The translations under genes and the position numbers were made by a program. Under the pieces are notes generated by a model that saw only the letters and a list, made by a program, of their open reading frames with translations, made no database searches and had not been told where the DNA came from. A stretch of DNA of 64,000 bases from an uncultured Pelagibacteraceae bacterium (GTDB lineage: Bacteria; Pseudomonadota; Alphaproteobacteria; Pelagibacterales; Pelagibacteraceae), in NCBI GenBank assembly GCA_902513955.1, contig CABXOW010000004.1, positions 1-64,000 of the forward strand. The letters run 5' to 3'. How positions within the stretch are numbered: position 1 is the stretch's first letter; the number at the start of each line of letters is the position of its first letter. Positions 2,664-8,000 of this stretch are shown in pieces.

Positions 2664-3215
2664 TTATATAGTCATTATTTCTTTTTCTTTTAAAGAAACC
2701 TTTTCGTCAACAATTTTAATGTGATCATCCGTAATTGTTTGAACATTTTTTTCAGATGATTTTTCAACATCTTCACCAATTTCTTTTGATTTTAAAAGTT
2801 TTTTTAATTCTTCATTAGCTTCTCTTCGAATATTTCTAATAGAAACTTTGCATTTTTCACCGATTGATTTTATAAGTTTTTTTAACTCTGTTCTTCGTTC
2901 CTCATTAAGTTCTGGAACAGGAAGTCTGATTAACTGACCATCTATTTGAGGATTTAAACCCAAATCAGATTTTTTAATTGCCGCATCAACTAAAGGGACA
3001 TTATTTGCATCCCAAACTTGAATATTAATCATTCTAGGTTCAGGTGTTGTTATGCTACCAACTTGGTTTATAGGCATTTGCTGACCATAAACATCGACTT
3101 TAACTAAATCCAACATGGCAGCATTTGCTCTACCAGTTCTTAGCGAAGATAATTCTTTTAAAAATACCTCAATGGCTTTATCCATTTTGATATTGTATGA
3201 CTTTTCGTCAAACAT
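2664..3215 (-). CDS. frr: ribosome recycling factor
   Basis: RRF works with EF-G to split the post-termination ribosome. The 183-aa length is typical, and the conserved core LSSLRTGRANAAMLD near the N-terminus is plain, as are IRLPVPELNEERR and KVSIRNIRREAN. The start codon follows directly on the tsf stop codon with no intervening base (TAAATG read on the minus strand). In most bacteria pyrH (UMP kinase) lies between tsf and frr; here it is cleanly absent. Confidence 0.97.
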   Translation of the reverse strand: MFDEKSYNIKMDKAIEVFLKELSSLRTGRANAAMLDLVKVDVYGQQMPINQVGSITTPEPRMINIQVWDANNVPLVDAAIKKSDLGLNPQIDGQLIRLPVPELNEERRTELKKLIKSIGEKCKVSIRNIRREANEELKKLLKSKEIGEDVEKSSEKNVQTITDDHIKIVDEKVSLKEKEIMTI

Positions 3216-4067
3216 TTATTCTCCGATCTTTATTCTATAAAACTCTTTTATCTTTAAATCTGCAATTGAGAGTTCTTTAACTATATCTTGTACCTTCTTT
3301 TTAGGTTCCATCACCCAAGCTTGGGATAATAGAGAATTTTCCTCTTTAAATTTATTCATCTTACCTAAGCTAATTTTTTTTGCAATATTCTCTGGTTTTC
3401 CTGAATTTTTTAACTCTTCAGTTACAAGTTCTTGCTCTTTATCAATAACTGATTGATCAATTAGATCAGCAGTAAGTGCTAATGGATTAGAAGCAGCGAT
3501 ATGCATAGATAATTGTTTTCCAAAATTTTTAACAGTATCAGAGTTTTCTTTTGTTTCTAAAGATACAATAACTGCTAATTTTGAAATATTATCTTTAACG
3601 ACTGTGTGCAAATAATGATTATTAACAGTCCCGGCATTTTTAATTGTTTTAGCTTTACCAATAGTAATTTTTTCACCAATTTTAGCAATTAATGACACTA
3701 CATTATTTTCTACAGTTTCACCATTTTTCATTTTAGAACTTTTTAAATCATCAAGATTTGAATTTTTTTCATTATTAAGTTCACTTAGTTCTTTTACAAA
3801 ATTTGTAAAATCTTCATTTTTTGCAACAAAGTCTGTCTCACAGTTAACTTCTATAACTGAAGTTTTGGTATTATTACCACTTATTGCAACAACACCTTCC
3901 TTAGCATCTCTAGACATTTTTTTAGATGCTTTTGAAATTCCTTTTACTCGTAAAATTTCAATAGCCTTTTCAATATCTCCTCCAGACTCTTTAATTGCAA
4001 GATTGCAATCTTTAAATCCTGCTCCTGTTGCCTCTCTTAATTTTTTAACATTTTCAATATCACTCAT
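3216..4067 (-). CDS. tsf: translation elongation factor Ts
   Basis: EF-Ts exchanges GDP for GTP on EF-Tu. The protein has the N-terminal UBA-like segment ([19 protein letters not shown]) and the core signature [13 protein letters not shown], the part that contacts EF-Tu. Length is 283 aa, normal for the family. It follows rpsB with a one-base gap and is followed immediately by frr. Co-transcription with rpsB is almost universal, and the leader before rpsB would then control both genes. Confidence 0.97.
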
Positions 4068-4068
4068 A

Positions 4069-4887
4069 TTAATTTAATGTCTCCTTTTTATCTTTAGAAA
4101 ATTTTTGTTCTAGTTTTTCTCTATCTATCTCTTGAACAGTTTTTCCTTGAGTTGTTTTTTTAGTATCTTTTACAGCATCCTTTTTAGGTTCAGGTGTTGG
4201 TATTGAACTTTTTGCATTATTGATAGTTTCTTTAATCAGATTACAATAAAGATCTATAGATCTACGAGCATCATCATTTCCAGGTATTGGATAATCGATA
4301 TTATCTGGGTTAGAATTACTATCAAGAATTGCAATTATGGGTATTCCTAATTTTGTCGACTCTGCGATTGCTAAAGATTCATAATTTGTGTCAATTATAA
4401 AAACTAAATCAGGAGTTTTTTTCATTTCAGCTATTCCACCTAATGATCTCTCAAGTTTATCTTTTTTGACACTCATTTTTAAAAGTTCTTTTTTTGTGAA
4501 GCCTCTATTTTCCGCAACTAGATCGGCTTCATATTTTTTCATTTTTTTAATTGAACCTGATATAGTTCCCCAGTTAGTAAGCATACCACCAAGCCATCTA
4601 TAATTTACAAAATACTGATCTGTTTCTTTAGCAACTTCAGCAATAGCTTCTGAAGCTTGTTTTTTTGTTGAAACAAATAAAATTTTGCCGTTATTTGTAA
4701 TTGTTGAATAAATTTTCTCTAAAGCAACTTTTGTAAGTTCTAAAGTTTGTGTTAAGTCCATTATATGAATTGAGTCTCTTTTTCCAAAAATGTATTTTTT
4801 CATTTTTGGATTCCATCTTAAAGTTTTGTGTCCAAGATGAACGCCTGCTTCTAATAATTGTTGTATAGTTATGTTTGGTATTTTCAT
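4069..4887 (-). CDS. rpsB: 30S ribosomal protein S2
   Basis: The protein opens with [20 protein letters not shown], the classic S2 signature, and carries the later motifs [14 protein letters not shown] and [15 protein letters not shown]. It sits in the small ribosomal subunit. The body ends near residue 228, after which about 45 mostly charged residues form a C-terminal tail ([13 protein letters not shown] and onward) that is probably disordered. Its start codon at 4885-4887 lies just downstream of a structured leader whose predicted pseudoknot uses bases directly before the start, so S2 autoregulation is a reasonable guess. Confidence 0.97.
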
Positions 4888-4980
4888 ATTTATTCCCGGT
4901 TAAGCCACCACAGTAATTTCCAATTAAGGACCGGAGGTATAAAACCAACAACTGTGTGCGTGTTAATTTAAATTAGGCTT
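4888..4980 (-). promoter_or_regulatory. structured 5' leader of rpsB with predicted pseudoknot
   Basis: This leader is less AT-rich than its surroundings. Read on the minus strand, CACAGT (4956-4951) can pair with ACTGTG (4914-4909) as a perfect 6-bp stem. The loop segment TCCGGT (4935-4930) can pair with ACCGGG (4900-4895), five Watson-Crick pairs and one G-U, just 8 bases before the ATG. The two helices interleave, so they form an H-type pseudoknot that would cover the ribosome-binding region. The loop also holds ACCTCC, which imitates the 16S anti-Shine-Dalgarno end. Ribosomal-protein leaders upstream of rpsB are known in bacteria; membership of a known family is inferred. Confidence 0.6.
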
Positions 4981-5009
4981 TATTTACTAATAATTAGTGA
5001 AATTAACAA
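4981..5009 (-). promoter_or_regulatory. sigma-70-type promoter for rpsB-tsf
   Basis: On the minus strand TTGTTA (5009-5004) is followed after 17 bases by TAAATA (4986-4981). Transcription would start near 4975, giving a leader of about 90 bases that contains the whole predicted pseudoknot. The spacing is ideal, but both hexamers differ from consensus and the background is AT-rich. Confidence 0.45.
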
Positions 5010-5016
5010 GTTTTAT

Positions 5017-8000
5017 TTAGTTTATAGTGCTAGATATTTCTCTTTTTCTTAAAAGATTAAGTAATTTGCGGTCAAGATTCCTTGTATTTTTAAGTTTAAA
5101 TTCTAAGGTTTTGTTATCAACAGTCATACTTATATTTACCTCCGTTTTACCATCTTCGGTTAAAATTTTTGAAATTTCGTCCAGATTTTCATGAGAATCA
5201 ACCTCAAAAAATACTTTGTTAATTGGACTATTAAATAGATCCATCATAGATCCTATTTTTTGTACATTAATTCTTTTAAATCTATTTTCATCATTTGATA
5301 TGTTTTTTACCAAAGTTAAAAGTAACGAGTTACCTTCTTTTAAAATTTCACGGTTTAATTCTAAAATATCAGAGAAAATAAATATTTCAAAAACACTACT
5401 TAAATCAGTTAATTTTAATACAGCATAAGAATTACCTTTTGCAGTTTTTCTTTCTTGGACTTTTAACAAAGTTGCTGCAATATTAGCTTCTCTTGTTTTA
5501 TCATTAGAATTAAAATTTGAGAAATCAACAATCTTATAATCATCAAAAATTTCCGTGAATTGATTCAATGGATGATCTGATATAAAAAATCCAACTGCTT
5601 CAAATTCTTTAGATAGGCGTTCTTCAAATTTCCAATCCTCTATCTCGTTAATAATATTATTTTGTGAAGTTTCTTCTTCAGAAAATAAATCTATTTGATT
5701 TGCTGATTTATTTTCAAATATATTTTTAGTTTTAAGAATAAAGTTAGGTATTGAGTCAAAAAGTGATTGCCGATTTTTATTTATACTATCAAAGGCTCCA
5801 GCTTTAACTAAACCTTCTAGCTGTAATTTGTTCATATCTTTAGGATTAACTCTATTTAAAAAATCATTTATAGATTTAAATTTACCATTCTCAGTTCTTT
5901 CCTTAACAACATTAGAAATAGCTTCATATCCAACAGCTTTTATACCACCTAAAGCATAATAAAATTTATCATCAATTGTTCTAAAATCTGCAAAACATTC
6001 ATTAATATCAGGTCTTACAACATCAACATTCAATCTTTTTAATTCTTCATAAAATTCACTCAACTTATTTTGATTTGAAATATCCATTGTCATTGATGCT
6101 CCAATAAATTCTTTAGGATAATAAGTTTTTAAGAAGGCAGTTTGATAAGATATTATTGCATAAGCAGCAGCGTGACTTTTATTAAAACCATATTCAGCAA
6201 AAGGTTCAATCTTTAGAAAAATTCCTGCCGCTACGTCTTTTGCTATTCCATTTTTTAATGCCCCAACAATAAAACCTTGTTTTTGTTTTTCTAATTCTGC
6301 TCTTTTCTTTTTTCCCATTGCTCTTCTAAGAAGATCAGCTTGACCTGCAGTAAAACCAGATAATTTTTGAGCAATTTGCATTACTTGCTCTTGGTATATA
6401 ATTACACCATATGTTGGTTTTAGAATGTCTTCTAACAAAGGATGGAGATAATCTGGTGTTTGTCTTCCATGTTTACAATCGTTATAGGTTGGTATATTGC
6501 TCATTGGTCCAGGTCTATAAAGAGCAACTAAAGCAATAATATCTTCAATGTGATTAGGTTTCATCTGAACTAGCGCTTCTCTCATTCCGGCACTCTCAAC
6601 CTGAAACAATCCAACTGTGTTACCACTTGATAATAAATCAAATACTTTTTGATCCTCGTAACTGATATTTTCTATATCAAAATTTTTATCAATTTTTTTG
6701 ACTAATTTTTGAGTATTATTAATTACAGTTAATGTTTTTAATCCTAAAAAATCAAATTTTACTAATCCTGCATTTTCTGCAGAATACATGTCAAATTGGG
6801 TAGATGGTAATAACAAATTTGCTGAAACGTCTTTGTATAACGGAACAACTTCTGTAAGTTTTTTATCAGCAATAACAACACCAGCAGCATGTGTTGCAAC
6901 GTTACGATTTAACCCTTCGAGTTTTAATGACAGATCAGTTAATTTTTTTACTCTAGGGTCTTCATTTACAAGTTTTTGCAATCTTGGTTCGCCTGCAATA
7001 CATTGAGATAGACTTTGTGGTCTAGATGGATCAAACGGTATCATTTTTGAAATACTGTCAACAAAACCATAAGGTAAACCTAATACTCTTCCTACGTCTC
7101 TAATTACCATTCTAGCTTTTAGTTTACCAAAAGTAATGATGTGAGCGACACTATCTTTATATTTTTTTGTTAAATATTCAAAAACTAGATCCCTTTTTTC
7201 CTCACAAAAATCTATATCAAAGTCAGGCATTGAGATACGATCAGGATTTAAAAATCTTTCAAAAATTAGATTAAATTTGATTGGGTCTACATCCGTAATT
7301 GAAAGACACCAAGCAACCAAAGATCCAGCCCCAGAACCTCTGCCAGGGCCAACAGGAATATCGTTATTTTTTGCCCATTTAATATAATCAGATACAATAA
7401 GAAAATAACTAGAATATTTCATTTCTATTATAATTGACAATTCATGCTCTAATCTATCCTTATAATCTAAATATGTTTTGTTGTTTTCGAGGTCATTAGC
7501 TTTAATTCCAAAAATTTTATCAAATTTAATTCTTAAACCGTGTAAAGAATCTTTTTTCAAAACATCATCTGCATTTCCTCCTTTTTCTGAACTAATGTTT
7601 GGTAAAATTGGTTTTGAAAACAAAGGTCTAAAACTGCATCTTAAGGGAAAGTTATAGTTATTTTCTAAAGCTTCTGGCAAATCTGCGAACAATTCTGACA
7701 TTTCTAAATTAGTTTTAAGATAATGTTGATTGGTTAATCTTATTCTATCTTTTTCGTTAACGTATGTTTTGTTACCAATACAAATTAATGCATCATGAGC
7801 TTCGTGCATATCTTGATGAAGATAAAATACTTCATTTGTTGCAATTATAGGTATTTCTAATTCTAAAGATTTATTAAGGTTAAATTTTTCAAAACCTATT
7901 TCATTTTGATCATTATGACGTTGTATTTCTATATAAAATCTATCACCAAAAGTAGAATTAAGTTTTTTGTAAAGATCATGTATTTCACTAAATTTACCCT

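Follow-up and report, generated by a model that had tools for sequence, protein, structure and literature searches.

A probable SAR11 copy of the rpsB leader motif with its pseudoknot close to the start codon

The RNA element directly 5' of the gene for ribosomal protein S2 (rpsB) in the 64,000-nt stretch of Pelagibacteraceae DNA analysed here (the window) is very probably the form taken in SAR11 by the rpsB motif (Rfam RF01815), an mRNA leader that acts in cis and serves control by S2. The element, which occupies positions 4960-4888 of the minus strand with rpsB beginning at 4887, is largely ordinary and is already known in this clade, since the motif was described, pseudoknot included, in 'Ca. 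Pelagibacter ubique' by Meyer et al. in 2009 (excerpt of PMC2704228) and an unannotated rpsB RNA was met again in SAR11 strain HIMB5 in a 2019 paper (excerpt of PMC6429828). A modest new point concerns its placement: in the SAR11 leaders some 7 nt separate the pseudoknot from the start codon and a Shine-Dalgarno-like motif is usually missing, whereas the rpsB leaders of other Alphaproteobacteria have about 16 nt and such a motif.

The leader lies in a 129-nt gap on the minus strand between the stop of dnaE (5017) and the start codon of rpsB, an ATG at 4887-4885. NCBIfam matches above cut-off identify dnaE upstream of the leader and tsf, frr and uppS downstream of it, and past uppS the best matches, both below cut-off, are cdsA and dxr. 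The features of the locus, in the order of transcription, are as follows.

5004-5009, minus strand: putative -35 box TTGTTA, within CTTGTT at 5010-5005 (recurring boxes in relatives)
4981-4986, minus strand: putative -10 box TAAATA, after a 17-nt spacer (recurring boxes in relatives)
4951-4960, minus strand: 5' strand of P1, CGC-A-CACAGU, with bulged A4957 (RF01815 alignment and covariation)
4944-4946, minus strand: 5' strand of P2, GGU (SAR11 alignment; Ca. P. ubique is likewise reported to have a P2 of 3 bp)
4936-4938, minus strand: 3' strand of P2, ACC (SAR11 alignment)
4930-4935, minus strand: 5' strand of the pseudoknot, UCCGGU, in J2-3, with the conserved core CCGGU (leader comparison)
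4928-4929, minus strand: 5' strand of P3, CC (SAR11 alignment; a 2-bp P3 as for Ca. P. ubique)
4920-4921, minus strand: 3' strand of P3, GG (SAR11 alignment)
4906-4914, minus strand: 3' strand of P1, ACUGUGGUG (RF01815 alignment and covariation)
4895-4900, minus strand: 3' strand of the pseudoknot, ACCGGG, at -13 to -8 relative to the start codon (sequence and leader comparison)
4888-4894, minus strand: spacer of 7 nt without a Shine-Dalgarno-like motif (sequence)
4069-4887, minus strand: rpsB, ribosomal protein S2 (TIGR01011, 309.8 bits, cut-off 76.3)
3216-4067, minus strand: tsf, elongation factor Ts, adjoining rpsB downstream (TIGR00116, 247.9 bits, cut-off 104.05)

The initial annotation, made from the sequence alone, had described the leader as an island of G and C in AT-rich DNA downstream of a matching promoter. 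The island is there, with 42.5% GC at 4888-4960 (a value attained by 3.8% of 73-nt windows) against 29.3% for the window as a whole and 16.1% for 4961-5016. The promoter fared less evenly. Its boxes recur among relatives, CTTG followed after 17-22 nt by GTAAA, GTATA, GTATT, TATATA or TATAA being present in 107 of 168 SAR11 upstream regions compared with a mean of 1.9 and a maximum of 6 in 100 shuffles, where the pattern was written after the sequences had been viewed and the shuffles ignore the relatedness of the genomes. A generic scan, on the other side, reported no promoter at 5009-4981, and a two-box scored scan also failed to find one, the mean score falling below that of the shuffles and none exceeding their 95th percentile. 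The conserved boxes support the putative promoter, as support and not as proof, and a transcript start would be expected near 4975, which would leave the leader whole.

The genes downstream call for a separate remark. Of the 103 loci having tsf, 102 have frr following it at a distance of 3-25 nt (in the window the junction is at 3215-3216), while in proteobacterial operons pyrH sits between the two. A search for pyrH (UMP kinase, TIGR02075) gave no above-cut-off match in the whole genome from which the window comes, nor in any of 41 genomes searched in the genus, that genome included, 8 of which are at least 90% complete; among 14 control genomes, 10 exceed the cut-off. Weak TIGR02075 matches lie within longer open frames in 40 of the 41 genus genomes, and these frames are candidates only. 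UMP kinase is usually essential, for which reason a loss or replacement of pyrH in the genus would deserve attention.

The assignment to the rpsB motif has to be reconciled with a low score. RF01815 aligns with the leader over the full model (positions 1-132) at 31.6 bits (E 1.2e-4), which stands against the assignment in that the cut-off of 40 bits is not reached, and it is for this reason that a default Rfam scan of the window gives three tRNAs and no leader. The 40-bit score is, however, a detection cut-off and not a trait, since Ca. P. ubique, the organism used to define the motif, itself stays under it: two named strains score 32.9 and 35.7 bits. With stricter filters, which lose some weak matches, no genome among the 197 sampled from the family attains the gathering score and 119 match at E <=0.001, and under the same filters 48 of 190 genomes of the class pass and 117 match. 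We think that the low score is due to the minimal P2 and P3. Annotation at the RF01815 cut-off omits the leader in the very clade where the motif was discovered. A cross-genus covariance model, for which 37 leaders were taken from the family's other genera, gives the window leader 86.5 bits (E 9.1e-18), with the next match in that genome at 15.7 bits (E 1.27). Of 147 genomes in the order, 121 have a match to it, in a single place each.

For comparison we gathered 169 SAR11 leaders, from 109 of 110 loci (one without a start was left out) and 60 further regions, with some of the loci belonging to the same contig; this is part only of what exists, as the S2 gene was found in 156 of 197 family genomes, and 30 of those loci together with the 60 regions were taken. 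Among the 169 leaders 132 are distinct, and removal of near-duplicates gave an alignment of 81 rows. The stem on which the initial annotation was built, CACAGU (4956-4951) with ACUGUG (4914-4909), can be read from the sequence as claimed, although at 6 bp it was drawn too short: C4960-G4906, G4959.U4907 and C4958-G4908 continue the helix below A4957, which is the bulged A in P1 of the Rfam consensus. G4959.U4907 was rejected as a conserved pair, with 18 of 81 rows non-standard and 1 changed on both sides, and is rather a step that varies while the C-G pairs flanking it are invariant. The alignment check that had been proposed for the two helices gave a clear answer for P1, which covaries strongly across the 81 leaders, and the outcome that would have refuted the initial annotation, an absence of covariation from either helix, did not occur. 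The inner six pairs of P1 are formed in 98.8% of cells, 58 cells having changes in both strands, and their covariation of 0.394 compares with 0.155 when shuffled (0 of 500 shuffles reach it) and with at most 0.145 for slid versions of the helix. RNAalifold recovers P1 unaided, and the covariation of the whole structure is 0.165 against 0.100 shuffled.

The leader of Ca. P. ubique is reported to have P1, a P2 of 3 bp, a P3 of 2 bp and a pseudoknot in J2-3 (excerpt of PMC2704228), and a three-stem junction with short P2 and P3 is present in the window leader as well. In the SAR11 alignment the 3-bp P2 is paired in 91.8% of cells; P3, which reaches up to 5 positions in relatives, is paired in 66.2% of cells, and of the two P3 pairs of the window one is formed in 75 of 76 rows and the other in 64 of 76. 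At about 73 nt, with its pseudoknot at the start site, the SAR11 leader offers a minimal natural version for studying repression by S2.

The second pairing of the initial annotation, TCCGGT (4935-4930) with ACCGGG (4900-4895), is likewise present, with the exception that its outermost pair, U4935.G4895, is not conserved and goes unformed in 30 of 80 rows. The remainder of the pseudoknot is near-invariant in the 81-row alignment, where we find one compensated row and four core failures that we read as an alignment shift, and its covariation there (0.025, against 0.057 shuffled) is below that of the shuffles, a result that counts against the rpsB-motif assignment; within this alignment the support for the pseudoknot therefore comes from conservation and not from covariation.

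The compensatory changes expected of a helix are met in a wider set of 236 leaders, consisting of the 169 from SAR11, 20 from a sister family of the order and 47 from other Alphaproteobacteria, after three had been trimmed out (these read CCGGU/ACCGG by eye). In this set the 5' strand was picked for its resemblance to CCGGU, with no regard to the 3' strand. The core CCGGU/ACCGG is found in 223 leaders and in 2 more assigned by reading, and the variants are CUGGU/ACCAG in 5, CCUGU/ACAGG in 2 and CCAGU/ACUGG in 1, with the remaining departures comprising 2 with one G-U and 1 mismatch. Thus 8 of the 11 departures from the core are compensatory changes, which affect two of the pairs and take three forms, these being counts of sequences and not of events, as two of the variant leaders share a family and two others are both from SAR11. 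The sampling was not random, the other Alphaproteobacteria being the 30 best-scoring class matches and 20 hand-picked leaders and the sister family being represented by 20 of the matches to our own model, and most non-SAR11 leaders were found with RF01815 or with that model, both of which favour consensus letters. Taken together, the comparison of sequences indicates that the knotted fold before rpsB is real and conserved, and the larger genome set confirms that the structure of the S2 leader is under selection.

The position of the pseudoknot strand just 5' of the start codon, which had been put at eight bases, is also confirmed, the distance in the window being 7 bases. The 3' strand lies 5-11 nt before the start codon in all 169 SAR11 leaders (median 7) and at 7-9 nt in the 20 of the sister family, and a Shine-Dalgarno-like motif is present in 8 of the former and none of the latter. 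Among the other Alphaproteobacteria the median spacing is 16 nt (46 of 47 leaders, one being without an ATG in the stretch) and 42 have a Shine-Dalgarno-like motif; for these and for the sister family the first ATG served as the start, wrongly so in at least one leader. Shine-Dalgarno use is generally low in the window, at 13 of 53 long ORFs with the first ATG as start, and a search for the 16S 3' end returned three places with one mismatch and no perfect one. In three leaders of one SAR11 genus a TTG is aligned at the place of the rpsB start codon. A literature search, with most subscription papers outside its reach, found the SAR11 spacing in no title or abstract.

In E. coli, excess S2 represses translation of rpsB-tsf, with S1 helping, through conserved leader features that include a bulge, and the ribosome-binding site lies outside the operator, the details of the mechanism being called unclear (excerpt of the review PMC10931766). 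By analogy, autoregulation of SAR11 rpsB by S2 is likely. S2, probably together with S1, would on the E. coli pattern bind the leader once there is more S2 than newly made 30S subunits can absorb, and would hold the leader in its pseudoknotted form; the geometry of the SAR11 leader suggests that, with the pseudoknot strand in the usual place of the Shine-Dalgarno sequence, the 30S subunit could then not load, so that synthesis of S2 would drop and that of tsf would follow. We put forward such a block at the start site tentatively, giving it somewhat less than an even chance. The SAR11 spacing, in combination with the rarity of Shine-Dalgarno motifs, makes direct occlusion plausible, and because the E. 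coli ribosome-binding site is outside the operator we propose it for SAR11 only.

The pseudoknot may instead be an activating platform for the ribosome, bound by S1, with S2 repressing through its engagement of S1 or of the platform. Pseudoknots are high-affinity targets of S1, and S2 needs S1 for effective repression (excerpt of PMC10931766), both of which would fit such a role. Since 161 of the 169 SAR11 leaders are without a Shine-Dalgarno-like motif, something else may recruit the ribosome, and the pseudoknot is kept within 5-11 nt of the start. A strand at -13 to -8 held in a helix ordinarily hinders 30S loading, however, and we regard the platform as rather unlikely, if far from negligible.

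Two other readings of the loop were rejected. That the pseudoknot strand has its functional partner in the alternative hairpin UCCGGU/AUUGGA, forming a switch, is very unlikely: the hairpin is part of the minimum-energy structure, but it is paired in 65.8% of cells, shows no excess of covariation over shuffles and has two of its six pairs mostly as G-U where they are formed. Less probable again is that the loop works through the mimicry of the anti-Shine-Dalgarno sequence pointed out in the initial annotation, its CCUCC either sequestering purine-rich sites or acting as a competitor of 16S rRNA. CCUCC is the join of a P2 strand and the pseudoknot strand; the window has it, as do 123 of 169 SAR11 leaders, but it is missing from the other 46, from all of the sister family (0 of 20) and from 43 of the 47 other alphaproteobacterial leaders (present in 4), and the covariation of its alternative pairing with GGNGG does not exceed that of shuffles, so that mimicry has to be given up.

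The lone sequence gives modest to weak evidence for structure, and it is the relatives that decide. When the 129-nt gap is shuffled, a perfect stem of 6 bp combined with a GC-rich pseudoknot of 6 bp arises in 1.3% of cases for mononucleotide shuffles (2000) and in 6.3% for approximate dinucleotide shuffles (300), and the fold energy of the leader is no better than that of shuffles (z -0.32, with 72 of 200 shuffles as stable). That the pairing is an accident of a GC-rich patch without RNA function is, in spite of these tests, next to impossible in view of the covariation of P1, the compensated changes in the pseudoknot, the presence of the pseudoknot strand in every one of the 169 leaders, which were gathered through the S2 protein and not through the RNA, and the match to the cross-genus model.

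The window leader resembles the rpsB motif of RF01815 in the gene that it precedes, in P1, P2, P3 and the J2-3 pseudoknot, and in the dnaE-rpsB gap, for which a table of Meyer et al. gives the same 129 nt with the rpsB motif in Ca. P. ubique (excerpt of PMC2704228), and it differs in falling under the Rfam cut-off. Compared with the rpsB leaders of other Alphaproteobacteria, the SAR11 pseudoknot is nearer to the start codon, and most of the SAR11 leaders lack a Shine-Dalgarno-like motif. It is possible, though we lean against it, that the SAR11 leader was rebuilt, with the Shine-Dalgarno sequence mostly lost and the pseudoknot strand moved about 9 nt closer as the presumed direction of change, and that control is exerted by direct occlusion or recruitment at the start site and not remotely as reported for E. 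coli.

The E. coli rpsB operator is the other known system. The E. coli K-12 leader (189600-190000) matches the Rfam family t44 (RF00127) at 83.5 bits, and the t44 model gave no match in 4780-5120 of the window among the 2 matches listed, with E up to 10. By eye, t44 and the rpsB motif look like one S2 leader element split into two families, and no clan is given for either. Both leaders stand before rpsB and share by eye the frame CACACAC...GUGGAGGCAUAACC with a bulged A; the E. coli leader can be read with the same CNC-A-C / GGNGG-N3-AACC frame as SAR11, in which a possible GGGGU/ACCCC takes the place of the CCGGU/ACCGG pseudoknot. The E. coli leader is unlike that of SAR11 in its longer P1, in its assignment to a separate Rfam family and in a pseudoknot strand that ends 24 nt before the start codon.
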